A DNA stretch of 47,529 nucleotides. Origin: an uncultured Flavobacteriales bacterium. Its GTDB lineage: Bacteria > Bacteroidota > Bacteroidia > Flavobacteriales_E > Vicingaceae. The stretch is taken from the NCBI GenBank assembly GCA_905479995.1, contig CAJQON010000032.1, positions 1 to 47,529 of the forward strand, in the 5' to 3' direction. Positions 758 through 47,407 of this stretch are shown piece after piece. A model generated the notes under the pieces. The model saw only the letters and a program-made list of their open reading frames with translations. It was not told the origin of the DNA and did no database searches. The position numbers were made by a program, and so were the translations under genes. Positions within the stretch are counted from its first letter, which is position 1. The number at the start of each line of letters is the position of its first letter.

Positions 758-3187
758 TTAATCTTCTCCACCCCAATCTCCATCTCCATCCATCTCTTTT
801 TGCTTTTTACAATCTAATTCTATCGTTAATGGAAAGTCAGGTTTTTCAAAATCTCCATCAGAAATTTTAAGCGCTTTGTCTTTGTGTACTTCTTGCATGT
901 AATATCCCCAAACTGGTAGAGCGGTATTAGCCCCTTGTCCCATTGTTGTTGTAGCAAATCGAACACTTCTTTCATCAGCTCCTACCCAAACTCCAGTTAC
1001 TAAATCGGGTGTAATTCCCATAAACCATCCGTCAGAATTATTTTGAGTGGTTCCTGTTTTTCCTGCAATTGGATAACGATGCCCAACGTAAGGACGAGAT
1101 TTAGAAACAGAACCTCTTAAACGCATTCCTGTTCCCAAAATTTTCCCTTTACATTCATTAAAAGCTCCACTAGTAACTCCTTTCATCAAATCTAACATTA
1201 CAAAAGCAGTTTGCTCATCCATCGCTTCTTGTGTTTTTGGAGAAAAGTCAATGATAACATTTCCATGTTTGTCTTCTACCCGTGTAAACATACTTGGCTC
1301 TATATAAATTCCTTTGTTGGCAAAAGTGGCGTTGGCACCTACCATTTCAAAAACAGAAACATCTGCTACTCCCAAACAAAGCGAAGGAACGGGGTCGAGC
1401 TTTGTTGTAATTCCCATTTGACGAGCCAAGTTAACTACCAATGATGGGTTTATTTGTTTCATTACCCATGCCGTAATCGTATTCATGGAATTAGCCAAGC
1501 CATACTCTAACGAGATTAAACATCCGTCTCTATCTCCATCGGAATTTTTAGGGGTCCAATCTTTTAATAAGCCAAATTCACCTTTATGAAAAGTTACTGG
1601 TAAATTAACTACTTCGGTACAAGGCGATAATTTTTTTTCTTGAATGGCTGCAGCGTAAACAAATGGTTTAAATGTAGATCCAACTTGTCGTGTACTAGTT
1701 ACGTGATCATAAGCAAAATTGTGGTAATTTACTCCACCAACCCATGCTTTAATGTATCCTGTATGAGGATCTACTGACATTAAGCCAGCATGCAAAAAGG
1801 TTTTATAATATTTTAATGAATCGTTTGGAGACATAATGGTATCTATTTCACCTTGGTGAGAGTAGAGTTTCATCTTTCTTTTTTGATCAAAAATTATTGG
1901 TATTGAATCTGGATCAGTAAAAGGTCTGGTATAACCACAATCTTCAGCCTGACAAACAAAGCTATCAGCTACTTGTTCTATCATTTTCCCACGTCTTCCA
2001 CAATTAAAACATTCTTTTCCAGCCAATACTCTGTATCGCGGGCTTCTTTTTCTGGCCGAATTCATTGCTGTTTCATATTGTTTTGCACTTAAGCCTTTGT
2101 GACTTCCATCGTAAGGATAACGTTTTGTTCGGTATCGTTTTAAATGTTTGTCAAACTGGGGTTGTAGGGTTTGTGCAATGTAACGTTCTACTGCGTATTC
2201 AGCATGGTCTTGCATTCGAGAATCTATGGTCGAAAATATTTTTAACCCATCACTATAAATGTTGTAAGGTTTTCCGTCAGACTTGGCATAAATGTAGTTC
2301 CCATCTTCGTCTTTTTCGGCCAACATTTTTTGCAGTTTTAACCGCAAAGTTTCTCTAAAATAAGGTGCTCTACCTATTTTATGATCAACTTCTTGATAGT
2401 TTAATTCTAATGGCAATTGCTTCAAAGAGTCTTTTTCTGCCTCTGTAATTAGTCCACTTCTCACCATCTGACTGAAAACGGTTGTTCTTCTATTTAAGGC
2501 TTTTTCTGGGAATCGTTTTGGATTGTATAATGAAGGGTTTTTTGCCATCCCAACCAAAACTGCAGCTTCCTCTATATTTAAATCTATTGGTGCTTTGTTA
2601 AAGTAAACGTTTGCTGCCGATTTTATTCCTACTGCATTGTAAATGAAATCGAACTTGTTGTAATACATCACAATGATTTCATCTTTGGTGTATCTTTTTT
2701 CAAGTTCAACAGCTATGATTTGTTCTTGGAGTTTTTGTTTGATTCGCTCTCCAAAACTATTTGCTGGCTCATTAAACATCATTTTAGCCAATTGCTGTGT
2801 AATGGTACTCGCTCCACCAGCTGACCCCATTTTAGCAATGGCTCTCATTAATCCTCTAAAATCTATTCCTGAATGACTTCTGTATCTTTCATCTTCCGTT
2901 GCCAGAAGTGCATCAACTAAAAACGGAGAAAGGTCTTGATACTTTACGTTGGTACGGTTTTGTAAGAAATATTTTCCGAGTACTTTTCCATCAGAACTAA
3001 TCACCTCAGAGGCTAAGTTACTTTTAGGGTTTTCTAATTCTTCTAGCGATGGTAGAGGATCAAACCCTAATGAGCCAGATTTTGCACCCCACATTACCAC
3101 ATAAAAAAGTAGTATTGGAAAAAGTACAATTACCCAAAATAGGAGAATTTTCTTTTTGTAATTCGGTTTATCTTCTTGTTTTGCCAC
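758..3187 (-). CDS. Class A penicillin-binding protein (PBP1A type), transglycosylase plus transpeptidase
   Basis: Bifunctional peptidoglycan synthase anchored in the inner membrane, 809 residues. One membrane segment lies at about residues 13-34. The GT51 glycosyltransferase domain follows, with catalytic E98 in TEDERYRSHSGID and GGASTITQQLAK at 124-135. The transpeptidase domain has nucleophile S504 in STFK, SMN at 567-569 and KTG at 710-712, so both activities should be intact. Between them sits an insertion with four cysteines (C393, C396, C412, C417) spaced like a zinc ribbon, which is unexpected outside the cytoplasm. The start is GTG at 3187-3185, directly after the gldH stop; the next in-frame methionine would remove most of the membrane anchor. 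The gene is cotranscribed with gldH. Confidence 0.93.
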   Translation of the reverse strand: MAKQEDKPNYKKKILLFWVIVLFPILLFYVVMWGAKSGSLGFDPLPSLEELENPKSNLASEVISSDGKVLGKYFLQNRTNVKYQDLSPFLVDALLATEDERYRSHSGIDFRGLMRAIAKMGSAGGASTITQQLAKMMFNEPANSFGERIKQKLQEQIIAVELEKRYTKDEIIVMYYNKFDFIYNAVGIKSAANVYFNKAPIDLNIEEAAVLVGMAKNPSLYNPKRFPEKALNRRTTVFSQMVRSGLITEAEKDSLKQLPLELNYQEVDHKIGRAPYFRETLRLKLQKMLAEKDEDGNYIYAKSDGKPYNIYSDGLKIFSTIDSRMQDHAEYAVERYIAQTLQPQFDKHLKRYRTKRYPYDGSHKGLSAKQYETAMNSARKRSPRYRVLAGKECFNCGRRGKMIEQVADSFVCQAEDCGYTRPFTDPDSIPIIFDQKRKMKLYSHQGEIDTIMSPNDSLKYYKTFLHAGLMSVDPHTGYIKAWVGGVNYHNFAYDHVTSTRQVGSTFKPFVYAAAIQEKKLSPCTEVVNLPVTFHKGEFGLLKDWTPKNSDGDRDGCLISLEYGLANSMNTITAWVMKQINPSLVVNLARQMGITTKLDPVPSLCLGVADVSVFEMVGANATFANKGIYIEPSMFTRVEDKHGNVIIDFSPKTQEAMDEQTAFVMLDLMKGVTSGAFNECKGKILGTGMRLRGSVSKSRPYVGHRYPIAGKTGTTQNNSDGWFMGITPDLVTGVWVGADERSVRFATTTMGQGANTALPVWGYYMQEVHKDKALKISDGDFEKPDFPLTIELDCKKQKEMDGDGDWGGED
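1937..2011 (-). other. Four-cysteine zinc-ribbon-like insertion within PBP1A
   Basis: These bases encode residues 393-417 of the penicillin-binding protein. The spacing is C-x2-C-x15-C-x4-C, with CFNCGRRGK at one end and CQAEDCGYTRP at the other, the typical knuckle pattern of a zinc ribbon. It lies between the glycosyltransferase and transpeptidase domains, on the periplasmic side. The cysteines could bind metal or form two disulfides; the sequence alone does not decide. Confidence 0.6.
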
Positions 3188-3661
3188 TTATTTTGCTTTT
3201 TCTACTCTTAAACCTACGTCCGTTATACCTTCCAACCCTTTATTTACGCGCATTCCTTGCTCCATAGAAACTGTATATTTTCCTGATTGAGCAAACTTAA
3301 ATCCTCCAACATACGGAATTTGAATGTCCCATAAATCTCCTATTCCTTTTCCGAGCCATTTTCCGCTTTTATCAGCTAACTCACAATTCACTGTGTCTTT
3401 TAACATGTTTCCATTGGGTCCTTGCAGGCTAATGAACAAATATAAATTGTTAAAAGCGTAATCTCCAGTGTTTCTAACGTTTAAATAGAGGTTATGTTTT
3501 GATACCGTATCAGTAACATCAAACTCAAAACTGGCCACATTTTCTTTTAACCAATTGTTGTTTTCAACTTCTATGTATTCTTCGTAAACTTTAGCAGAAT
3601 CGCAACCTACCAAAAACATTGCTGCAACTAAAAACATTCCTATTTTAAATCCACTCTTCAC
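3188..3661 (-). CDS. gldH: Gliding motility lipoprotein GldH
   Basis: A 157-residue lipoprotein with signal peptide and lipobox LVGC, lipidated cysteine C20. The mature part (KVYEEYIEVENNNW, then a beta-rich domain with LWDIQIPYVGGFKF) resembles GldH, a lipoprotein needed for gliding in flavobacteria. The start is GTG at 3661-3659, sharing one base with the ricT stop (TAGTG), which suggests translational coupling; a later ATG at codon 9 is possible but would shorten the positively charged n-region. The next gene, PBP1A, starts immediately after its stop. Co-occurrence with porZ fits a T9SS-bearing organism; whether this strain glides cannot be told from the window. Confidence 0.88.
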   Translation of the reverse strand: MKSGFKIGMFLVAAMFLVGCDSAKVYEEYIEVENNNWLKENVASFEFDVTDTVSKHNLYLNVRNTGDYAFNNLYLFISLQGPNGNMLKDTVNCELADKSGKWLGKGIGDLWDIQIPYVGGFKFAQSGKYTVSMEQGMRVNKGLEGITDVGLRVEKAK

Positions 3662-4878
3662 TAATCCTTTTTGTTGTTTGGTTTGTTTTTGTTGTTATTT
3701 CTGTTTCTGTTGTTTTTATTTTTATTACGATTGTTGTTGTTTCTGTTCTTGTTGTTTCTTTTCTTTTTACCGCTTCCCTTTTTACCGTCAAATCGAGTTA
3801 AACTATCTTGTCCAACAACATTAGCATAATCTGGTTCTTTAATCACCTCTTTTACCTCAACAAAGCCCATTAAGTCTGCAGGTGATTGCCCTTCTTTATT
3901 CATTTTCACAATTTCATTCACCCTATTGAGTTTAAGCTCAATAAACTTTAATGGTTCATCTGAATATGAGTACCACATCATGTTTTTAAAGATGTCCATT
4001 TTACGGTAAAATGCTTGACCTTTTTTCGTTTTTAGTTTTAAATTGGTGTCAGGAAAATCTTTTAATGCATCAACATATCCATCTAGCTCAAAGTTTAAAC
4101 AACATTTAAGTTTACCACATTGACCTGCCAATTTTTGAGGATTTAAAGACAATTGCTGGTATCTGGCAGCTGATGTTGAAACAGAACGGAAATCGGTTAA
4201 CCATGTTGAACAACACAGTTCTCTTCCACAAGAGCCAATACCACCTAAACGACTTGCTTCTTGACGAACACCAATTTGTTTCATCTCAATTCTAAGCTTG
4301 AATTCTTCCGCTAATTTTTTAATCAATTCTCTAAAATCAACCCTTCCTTCTGCCGTATAGTAAAAAACTGCTTTAGATTTATCTCCTTGATATTCTACAT
4401 CGCTAATTTTCATTTGTAAACCTAAAACAATGGCAATTGTTCTGGCTTTGTACATCGTGTCAATTTCCAATTGTTGAGCCTGTACCCACTTATCAATATC
4501 GCCTTTTTTAGCTAGCCGATATACTTTTCTTATATCTTCAGAATCAAAAGCTACTTTAGCTTTTCGCATTTGTTTTTTCACCAACTCTCCCGTTACTGAA
4601 ATAATTCCAATATCATGACCTGATTGAGCTTCAACAGCAACAACATCTCCTACATTTAAACTTAAAGCTTCTGTATTTCTATAGAATTCTTTTCGGCTAT
4701 TTTTAAATCTAATCTCTACACAGTCAAACATGGTTTGCCCATGCGGCAATTCTATGTCGTTTAACCAATCAAAAACATTTAATTTATAACTGCTACACGA
4801 ACCACTTTTGCTACATCCTCCTCTATCGGAAGAACTACATCCACCACCAGTACTGCAATTGCAACTACTACATCCCAT
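3661..4878 (-). CDS. ricT: PSP1-domain regulatory protein, RicT/YaaT family
   Basis: A 405-residue PSP1-family protein. In Bacillus, RicT works with RicA and RicF in an iron-sulfur complex that affects RNase Y and RNA maturation; the role in Bacteroidota is not established. The PSP1 core spans about residues 50-270, with conserved cysteine groups C217, C222, C223 and C254, C259, C260. An N-terminal extension carries six cysteines within residues 3-28. The last 40 residues are almost only Asn, Lys and Arg, encoded by a triplet-like low-complexity tract at 3664-3780, and are probably disordered and possibly RNA-binding. ATG at 4878-4876. It sits between holB and gldH, an arrangement common in the phylum. 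Confidence 0.9.
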   Translation of the reverse strand: MGCSSCNCSTGGGCSSSDRGGCSKSGSCSSYKLNVFDWLNDIELPHGQTMFDCVEIRFKNSRKEFYRNTEALSLNVGDVVAVEAQSGHDIGIISVTGELVKKQMRKAKVAFDSEDIRKVYRLAKKGDIDKWVQAQQLEIDTMYKARTIAIVLGLQMKISDVEYQGDKSKAVFYYTAEGRVDFRELIKKLAEEFKLRIEMKQIGVRQEASRLGGIGSCGRELCCSTWLTDFRSVSTSAARYQQLSLNPQKLAGQCGKLKCCLNFELDGYVDALKDFPDTNLKLKTKKGQAFYRKMDIFKNMMWYSYSDEPLKFIELKLNRVNEIVKMNKEGQSPADLMGFVEVKEVIKEPDYANVVGQDSLTRFDGKKGSGKKKRNNKNRNNNNRNKNKNNRNRNNNKNKPNNKKD

Positions 4879-45307: not shown

Positions 45308-47407
45308 ATGAAAACAATACACCTAATTACAACAAGCATATTCCTCACCCTCTCTTATCAGTATGCAAACGGTCAAATTAACTATGCCAACAACACCATA
45401 AGCGGATCATATTCTTCGGCTTTAGGATATGGCAATAAAGCAACCGCAAATTATTCCATAGCTATGGGTAGTCTAACCGAAGCAAAAGGTTGGTTTAGCA
45501 CCGCCATTGGCTACCAAACCAAAGCAAGTGCCGACTATACCACAGCTATGGGTTACTTAACAATTGCCAGCGGAATAAATTCTACCGCTATGGGAAGAAA
45601 TGCAATAGCTAGTGGCAGTTATTCAACCGCTATGGGCTATGGAACTGAAGCCAAAGGATACCAATTGGTGCTAGGAAGGTACAACACCATTAGTGGTGTT
45701 AATAGTTGGCTACCTACAGATCCACTACTAATTGTTGGAAATGGAACAAGTAGCTCAAATCGTTCCAATGCTTTTACCCTATTAAAAAATGGAAAATTAG
45801 GCTTAGGAACTGCTGCTCCACTAACTGCATTGCACATTGAAGGTGGAGGGTTGTTTATAAATGGAGACATTGGAGCAACGCCAGTAGAAGGTTCAGGAAG
45901 CCGACTCATGTGGATTCCCGAAAAAAAAGCATTTCGAGCAGGAGCAGTCAATGGAAATCAATGGAATGCAGATAGCATAGGCAATTATTCGGTAGCCTTT
46001 GGCACCAATACCATTGCCAGCAATCATGGAGCATTTGCTTCTGGAACAGCAAACAAAGCCACAGGAAACTCCTCTACAGCATTGGGAGCATACAGCACCG
46101 CTGCAGGAACATACTCCACTAGTTTAGGCGGCTACAACCAAGCTAGCGGATATGGCGCTACCACTATTGGAATGAACTCTATTGCCAGCGGATTTTATGC
46201 CACTACTATTGGGCAAAACAATCAGGCTTTAGGCAATGCTTCTTTAGCTGTTGGTGAAGAAGCCCAAGCCAATGGAAATCGTGCCATAGCTTTAGGAAAC
46301 CATGTAATTGCCAACGCATTTCAAGTGGTTATGGGTCGATACAATGATCCTGCAGGAGATCCAAATTCATGGAGAACAAATGACCCTTTAGTACTTATTG
46401 GAAATGGACAAGATGATGCCAACCGCTCCAATGCTTTTACCTTATTAAAAAATGGAAATTTAGGATTGGGCATTAACAACCCCACAGAACGATTACACAT
46501 TAAAGGAAAAGCAAGAATAGATAGTTTACTCTTTGCCAACCAAGGAATTCAATTTGCAGATGGTAGCATCTTAAACACCGCCACCAACTCCGATACAACC
46601 ATTTTTGATTACTTAACGGTAAATAAGCGCTTAAAAATTGGACAAAACTCCTTGTATTTAGGCTCCGACTCTTTAGGTGCAAACAACCACTTATGGACAG
46701 ACAATGGCCCGCTAACCTTAAATGGAGATAGCACTGGCGGCAATCAAGACACCTACATTAATCCGGTTGATGGAAAAGTAGGAATAGGAACTACTGTTAA
46801 TGATCCTGTTTATGGTTTACCTGCCGCCAACACCTTATACAAAACCGTTATTAAAAAAAGTTTGTTACTTACTGGAAACAACAGTGTAATTGGTTTTAAG
46901 GCAGATAGTACAACAAACTACCACGGAGACAATGCCATGTGTTTAGAGGTTAGACCCAATGGCCACCCTCATTTTCCAAGTTGTACTAACCCAATAAGAG
47001 GACTAAACTTCTTTCGCCCTTTTGCTACTAGTCAAGACCGATACAACGGTAATTTCGATTTATTCATCTCCTCTTTAGGAGGTAGTGAAGGATTTGTTGG
47101 TATAGGAACTCCGTACCCTAAATACCGTCTATCAGTAAATGGCACCTTAGGAGCAAGGAAAGTTATAGTAGAAGCAGCAGATTGGTGTGATTATGTTTTT
47201 GAAAAAGACTACTATTTAATGCCTTTAAACGATGTCGAAATTTACATTCAAAACAATAAACATTTACCTGAAATACCATCAGAAACAGAAGTAATAAAAA
47301 ACGGACAGAATCTAGCCGAAATAAATAAATTATTACTTAAAAAAGTAGAAGAATTAACCCTCTATATTATTGACATCGAAAAACGATTACAAAAAGTAGA
47401 GCACTAA
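45308..47407 (+). CDS. Secreted YadA-head-repeat surface protein
   Basis: A 699-residue exported protein. A signal peptide (about 1-23, ending ANGQ) precedes two blocks of 14-residue YadA/Hia-type head repeats (about 32-117 and 225-333), such as NYSIAMGSLTEAKG and DYTTAMGYLTIASG. Each block ends with a matching linker (VLGRYN or VMGRYN, DPLLIVGNG or DPLVLIGNG, NRSNAFTLLKNG), showing an internal duplication. The C-terminus has YVFEKDYYLMPLNDVEIYI, HLPEIPSETEV and a final coiled coil, as in many Bacteroidota tail-fibre-like proteins. Such heads form left-handed beta-roll trimers, often adhesive. No T9SS sorting domain and no outer-membrane anchor are evident, so how it is exported or attached is unclear. 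Confidence 0.88.
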   Translation: MKTIHLITTSIFLTLSYQYANGQINYANNTISGSYSSALGYGNKATANYSIAMGSLTEAKGWFSTAIGYQTKASADYTTAMGYLTIASGINSTAMGRNAIASGSYSTAMGYGTEAKGYQLVLGRYNTISGVNSWLPTDPLLIVGNGTSSSNRSNAFTLLKNGKLGLGTAAPLTALHIEGGGLFINGDIGATPVEGSGSRLMWIPEKKAFRAGAVNGNQWNADSIGNYSVAFGTNTIASNHGAFASGTANKATGNSSTALGAYSTAAGTYSTSLGGYNQASGYGATTIGMNSIASGFYATTIGQNNQALGNASLAVGEEAQANGNRAIALGNHVIANAFQVVMGRYNDPAGDPNSWRTNDPLVLIGNGQDDANRSNAFTLLKNGNLGLGINNPTERLHIKGKARIDSLLFANQGIQFADGSILNTATNSDTTIFDYLTVNKRLKIGQNSLYLGSDSLGANNHLWTDNGPLTLNGDSTGGNQDTYINPVDGKVGIGTTVNDPVYGLPAANTLYKTVIKKSLLLTGNNSVIGFKADSTTNYHGDNAMCLEVRPNGHPHFPSCTNPIRGLNFFRPFATSQDRYNGNFDLFISSLGGSEGFVGIGTPYPKYRLSVNGTLGARKVIVEAADWCDYVFEKDYYLMPLNDVEIYIQNNKHLPEIPSETEVIKNGQNLAEINKLLLKKVEELTLYIIDIEKRLQKVEH

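Follow-up and report, generated by a model that had tools for sequence, protein, structure and literature searches.

A clade-restricted four-cysteine insert, predicted to fold as a zinc ribbon, between the catalytic domains of a Flavobacteriales PBP1A

Results

The PBP1A gene and its surroundings

The window, by which the whole analyzed stretch of 47,529 nucleotides is meant, belongs to an uncultured Flavobacteriales bacterium (Vicingaceae) with a genome assembly of 3.1 Mb in 59 contigs that is 98.2% complete. Close to its first position lies a gene for the penicillin-binding protein PBP1A (Table 1). In the encoded protein, Pfam placed the glycosyltransferase domain (Transgly, PF00912) at residues 67-241 with 175.1 bits and the transpeptidase domain (PF00905) at residues 472-728 with 84.4 bits, both above the cut-off, and the match to the PBP1A family model TIGR02074 reached 462.8 bits, which is below its cut-off of 508.75. 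Both catalytic domains in one chain and an N-terminal anchor helix, the features of a class A penicillin-binding protein (PBP), were all present. Judged from this topology, the portion of PBP1A beyond the anchor helix is probably extracytoplasmic. The Transgly domain was found in two proteins of the source genome, and the profile of the insert described below (A1, an alignment of 22 inserts) matched the genome once.

The upstream neighbor gldH adjoins the PBP1A gene both in loci with and in loci without the insert, and this context is therefore not insert-specific. Elsewhere in the window, positions 3661-4878 encode a PSP1 protein (PF04468) whose N-terminus is rich in cysteine and glycine (MGCSSCNCSTGGGCSSSDRGGCSKSGSCSS), and positions 45308-47407 encode a 699-aa protein with repeats, which we take to resemble the heads of trimeric adhesins.

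Table 1. Features of the PBP1A locus, in positions of the window.
Feature	Position	Strand	Basis
PBP1A, bifunctional class A penicillin-binding protein, 809 aa, GTG start	758..3187	-	Pfam, TIGR02074
Transpeptidase domain	1004..1774	-	PF00905, residues 472-728
Lone-folded piece, residues 380-444 (helix, three-stranded ribbon, helix)	1856..2050	-	AlphaFold2
Four-cysteine zinc-ribbon-like insert, residues 390-422	1922..2020	-	Alignments A1, A4; missing in insert-less orthologues; predicted strands
Second knuckle C412-Q-A-E-D-C417	1937..1954	-	Codon positions, conservation
First knuckle C393-F-N-C396, then G-R-R-G	2000..2011	-	Codon positions, conservation
Glycosyltransferase (Transgly) domain	2465..2989	-	Pfam
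N-terminal helix, residues 10-37, read as membrane anchor	3077..3160	-	AlphaFold2 helix; hydrophobic stretch after KKK
GldH lipoprotein gene, upstream neighbor of the PBP1A gene	3188..3661	-	PF14109, 140.4 bits

Four cysteines are conserved in the linker

A first-pass annotation of the window had pointed to four cysteines spaced C-x2-C-x15-C-x4-C between the two catalytic domains of PBP1A. Translation of the open reading frame (3187..758, minus strand) reproduced this spacing, with the codons of C393, C396, C412 and C417 at positions 2009-2011, 2000-2002, 1952-1954 and 1937-1939, and since Transgly ends at residue 241 and Transpeptidase starts at residue 472, the motif does lie between the catalytic domains. 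It is part of an insert of 30-40 residues in the linker that joins them.

When the window protein was aligned with 85 distinct insert-bearing relatives, each of the four cysteines was present in 86/86 sequences. Within residues 384-435, only G390 and F433 were otherwise kept in all 86, followed in the insert by R398 (85/86), N395 (80/86), R399 and D416 (71/86 each), while the remainder varied. A glycine directly follows the first CxxC in 60 of the 86 sequences, and a fifth cysteine within the segment was seen in three. The spacing ranged over C-x2-C-x15..20-C-x4/6-C in seven classes: 2-19-4 (39 sequences), 2-15-4 (21), 2-19-6 (11), 2-20-4 (7) and the rarer 2-18-4 (5), 2-16-4 (2) and 2-16-6 (1). 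Fixed cysteines with loops of variable length are expected if the four residues meet at one point. Both TGC and TGT were in use at every cysteine site (85 codons per site; 35 TGC and 50 TGT at site 393), which indicates that the DNA has diverged and the residue has been kept. A chance origin of the motif is ruled out by the complete conservation of all four cysteines.

Eleven sequences carry a variant of the ribbon (L027, L131, L137, L138, L142, L151-L154, L158 and L159), in which a proline replaces the second arginine after the first knuckle and the second knuckle is C-x6-C and ends in G-G-C; the two changes co-occur. PBP1A has a second cysteine pair, C523 (window 1619-1621) and C793 (window 809-811), which is conserved irrespective of the insert: C523 in 84/84 insert-bearing sequences with a letter at this site and in 33/34 others, C793 in 82/82 and in 31/32, the remaining one being masked.

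The motif is present or absent as a whole

Among 121 distinct PBP sequences including the window, 86 had the motif, 34 had no cysteine in the segment and one (L155) was masked by N, in a set that leans towards the motif because many sequences were collected with profile A1 or a CxNC pattern. The 34 include L002 and one L031 fragment, for which the segment is empty, and sequences of low weight that are probably paralogues or distant (L038-L041, L044, L045, L187 and L188). Partial forms of the motif were found in none of the 48 sequences aligned from the whole-protein search, and the lowest PBP match in the 395 class genomes had 43.6 bits, with none weaker at E ≤ 0.001; both argue against a strong sampling bias. 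The four cysteines are hence present or absent together, the point that the alignment proposed in the first-pass annotation was meant to check.

The whole-protein search covered 41 genomes including the source, with relatives in the family of the window and beyond. In the 48 sequences aligned from this search and from regions retrieved afterwards, the four-cysteine block of 30-40 residues occurred in members of the window's family and in two other genomes (G032 and G036). Other members of the class had a short loop at the site, often R-Y-x-x-L-K-x-x-G-x-S-x-D-S-I, in agreement with the earlier statement that the usual PBP1A linker lacks such a motif.

In the order, profile A1 matched 44 of 46 genomes, including 32/32 good ones; the two without a match are 89% and 69% complete, and the former is also without a full PBP1A match. 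In a sample of the class it matched 56 of 395 genomes, and in a sample of the phylum that includes many genomes of the window's own class it matched three of 395, namely the source, one genome of the same class and one of another class (G572). The G572 match, the only one outside the class, is to a topoisomerase I, which contains repeats of four cysteines. The insert is thus a clade-restricted addition to a class A PBP outside its catalytic domains.

With a single peptide pattern, which is blind to variants such as C-x-N-C-E-R-P, 55 insert-bearing loci were confirmed. They were labelled Vicingaceae, Vicingus, Salibacteraceae, Cryomorpha ignava or other Flavobacteriales, Bacteroidia, Bacteroidetes or Bacteroidota, with the exception of one contig labelled Verrucomicrobia (L091). 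The PBP1A on this contig carries the insert and is 58% identical to that of the window; the label probably reflects a mislabelled bin.

History of the insert

One family is split: 21 of its 35 genomes have the insert, and the other 14 (L029 and L160-L172) have a PBP1A with a short loop, so the module has been dispensable over evolution. For a tree, the 121 sequences were reduced to 117 of over 620 residues and then to 78 under 80% identity; the linker columns were excluded and the masked L155 was assigned by hand as insert-bearing. At least six changes of the insert were required on this tree, four of which were forced by well-supported branches. A single insert-bearing clade was rejected by the AU test (p-AU 2.3e-5) on 51 of the 78 sequences, after 12 long-branched, masked or distant ones and 15 insert-bearing ones from densely sampled groups had been dropped. 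Because the inserts resemble one another in sequence, this history may be read as a single origin, after which the insert was lost or exchanged among lineages, rather than as many origins. At the same linker site, L032 and L034, which belong to two further families, have long, charged, cysteine-free inserts that are unrelated to the ribbon, indicating that the site tolerates added modules.

Predicted fold of the insert

In an AlphaFold2 model of the full PBP1A (48 sequences, mean pLDDT 87.1), which as a whole matches class A PBPs, strands were predicted at residues 403-406, 409-412 and 420-422, and the pLDDT was 83, 88 and 79 for residues 391-400, 401-410 and 411-420, respectively. When residues 380-444 were folded alone (37 sequences, mean pLDDT 90.3, pTM 0.68), the same three strands (24-27, 30-33 and 41-43) were obtained, flanked by two helices. 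Of the features of a zinc ribbon fold, the insert has two cysteine knuckles, conserved in all insert-bearing sequences, and, by prediction only, a three-stranded ribbon.

Foldseek found no match of the lone piece under E 0.001; its best E was 0.45. In a VIA-align comparison, 46 of 504 chains reached Z ≥ 2, with a top Z of 3.0 and none at Z 5. These best values (E 0.45, Z 3.0) are at a level that the tool calls common and are weak. Ribosomal eL43/L37a entries, one of them labelled eL42, account for 21 of the 46 chains, and most show an offset of 25 residues at their start, so that the model's C14 and C17 coincide with Cys 39 and 42 of eL43 if the alignment is ungapped from the offset and the entry numbering follows the full chain. 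Other neighbors at Z ≥ 2 are eIF2-beta, NrdR, RPB9-type subunits and topoisomerase I, which we take to be zinc ribbons as well. The neighbors are not all zinc ribbons and include a viral protein. For so small a domain, they may count as support for a ribbon fold, short of proof. The zinc-ribbon-like character proposed in the first-pass annotation thus holds for the knuckles and for the predicted ribbon, and the structural neighbors agree with it for the most part, at weak scores.

Among the Pfam zinc models, none was above the cut-off for the window protein (YhfH and PHD_NSD were sub-threshold). Membership of the 22 inserts in a Pfam zinc family was rejected, as only many weak matches were obtained (best E 0.00066), which may reflect the cysteine spacing alone. 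The C2H2 finger protein 6wmi, matched by a PDB sequence profile at 1.9e-5, was likewise set aside, as it is made up of five repeat matches that each score 0-10 bits.

Discussion

A proposed docking role for the insert

With moderate confidence, the insert is read as a clade-specific docking knob on PBP1A, formed by a structural Zn(Cys)4 ribbon. The C393-x2-C396 and C412-x4-C417 knuckles would coordinate a single structural Zn(II) and shape a ribbon of three strands, which would project from the linker between the catalytic domains into the periplasm, where the insert would lie. Here, zinc would act as a staple by which a rigid knob can be made from a short chain, and the metal-stiffened knob with its conserved C-G-R-R-G tip may hold a clade-specific partner of the envelope, candidates being an activating lipoprotein and the cell wall. 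Among the options raised in the first-pass annotation, i.e. a sensing site, a protein-binding knob or a pair of disulfides, docking appears to fit best by analogy, and it is our first choice because the insert shares its setting with the ODD and UB2H regions of E. coli: it is found between catalytic domains, is clade-restricted and is present all or none.

A purely structural zinc ribbon, which takes the place of a loop, makes the linker between the glycosyltransferase and transpeptidase domains more rigid and has no binding partner, is a possible yet unlikely account. It draws on the same evidence for a zinc ribbon (co-conserved cysteines, lone fold, structural neighbors), and apart from G390 the best-kept residues other than cysteine (R398, N395, R399 and D416) sit beside the knuckles. 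No insert-specific neighbor gene was seen at the loci compared, which also suits this account; gldH and scoA are neighbors of insert-bearing and insert-less PBP1A genes alike. The gldH gene was counted in 109/133 insert-bearing versus 13/52 insert-less loci. Many of the latter are short or belong to paralogues, loci overlap, and L026, L087 and L155 were filed as insert-less because of an incomplete start or masked bases. No association with gldH is therefore claimed. Against the purely structural account, 30-40 added residues, among them an almost invariant arginine, point to more than a spacer, and in insert-less orthologues a short loop suffices.

Two periplasmic disulfides among the four cysteines, with no metal bound, were the less likely option and are judged improbable. 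The domain is probably extracytoplasmic and DsbA-family genes were found in 17 of 24 genomes searched, which speaks for disulfides, but the source genome (98.2% complete) gave no match to the DsbA, DsbB or VKOR families, and DsbB and VKOR each matched only 1 of the 24. In the accessible part of PMC12635249, Flavobacterium johnsoniae is described to form functional periplasmic disulfides, which join SprF and PorG to GldK; an oxidizing route thus exists in the phylum, and the argument from absent Dsb proteins is for this reason weak evidence. Cysteine numbers also speak against disulfides. The exported proteins of the source genome had no excess of even numbers, with 40 even and 45 odd by a crude caller and 47 each by a looser version that admitted some cytoplasmic proteins; for E. 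coli, a small control of 17 proteins with cysteine, the same script gave 12 even and 5 odd, a difference that is not significant (Fisher p 0.11). In 36 of 65 full-length insert-bearing PBP1A proteins, the number of cysteines after the anchor is odd. Moreover, the CxxC-G start of the insert presumably resembles a zinc knuckle. Cysteine spacing, predicted ribbon and odd cysteine totals tip the balance, and we infer zinc in the insert.

Zn(Cys)4 sites can be redox-sensitive, but four cysteine ligands usually make a tight structural site. A zinc- or redox-sensing switch would change the activity of PBP1A upon loss of zinc or oxidation of thiols, and wall synthesis would thereby respond to the supply of metal or to oxidative stress. 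Such a switch is very improbable, since nothing in the neighborhood or sequence points to sensing, even if a coupling of this kind is proposed for the own site of PBP2 of Acinetobacter baumannii in the accessible part of PMC9974482.

Returning to the docking knob, a more far-reaching version can be put forward only tentatively: in some Flavobacteriales-type lineages, the extracytoplasmic zinc ribbon might be the PBP1A docking site for an undiscovered activator and make wall synthesis zinc-dependent. The family in which 21 genomes have the insert and 14 do not would be a natural comparison for finding a partner.

Comparison with known systems

If zinc is bound, the insert would place an exported zinc ribbon within a wall synthase of class A. 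Among the literature matches listed, which cover little of the subscription literature, no description of an exported zinc ribbon or finger in a PBP or periplasmic protein was found; papers naming both 'penicillin-binding protein' and 'zinc ribbon' concern other subjects, as judged from titles and opening lines of abstracts.

Zinc in a periplasmic PBP has been shown for A. baumannii PBP2, where, according to the accessible part of PMC9974482, a structural zinc with the ligands D350, D365, H371 and C384 in the transpeptidase domain, near the active serine, is needed for stability and cell shape. Like PBP1A of the window, PBP2 is a high-molecular-weight periplasmic PBP, and its site includes a cysteine ligand; in contrast, the four cysteines described here are in a separate linker insert of a class A enzyme, and their zinc is putative. 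The PBP2 motif D-x14-D-x5-H-x11-S-C-[DN], as given in that part of PMC9974482, was not found in the window protein, in which the corresponding S-x-N is S567-M-N569 with methionine as x.

The best structural neighbors of the lone domain are eL43/L37a and other cytoplasmic zinc ribbons (Z up to 3.0). Ribosomal eL43 has the spacing C-x2-C-x14-C-x2-C, whereas the second knuckle of the insert is C-x4-C or C-x6-C and belongs to an exported protein.

The closest parallels in setting are the ODD region of E. coli PBP1A and the UB2H region of PBP1B, neither of which, to our knowledge, contains a four-cysteine ribbon. Both are clade-restricted extra regions of class A PBPs that dock the outer-membrane lipoproteins LpoA and LpoB, and LpoA is restricted to gammaproteobacteria (Typas and colleagues, accessible part of PMC3060616). 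The insert shares this clade restriction as an addition to a class A PBP and, as ODD, is located between the glycosyltransferase and transpeptidase domains, but LpoA and LpoB are known partners there, whereas docking is only a candidate role here. The insert might thus offer a handle on PBP1A regulation outside the gammaproteobacteria and, should the tentative activator-docking version be true, would do by means of a metal what ODD and UB2H do in E. coli, as a third solution to the same problem.
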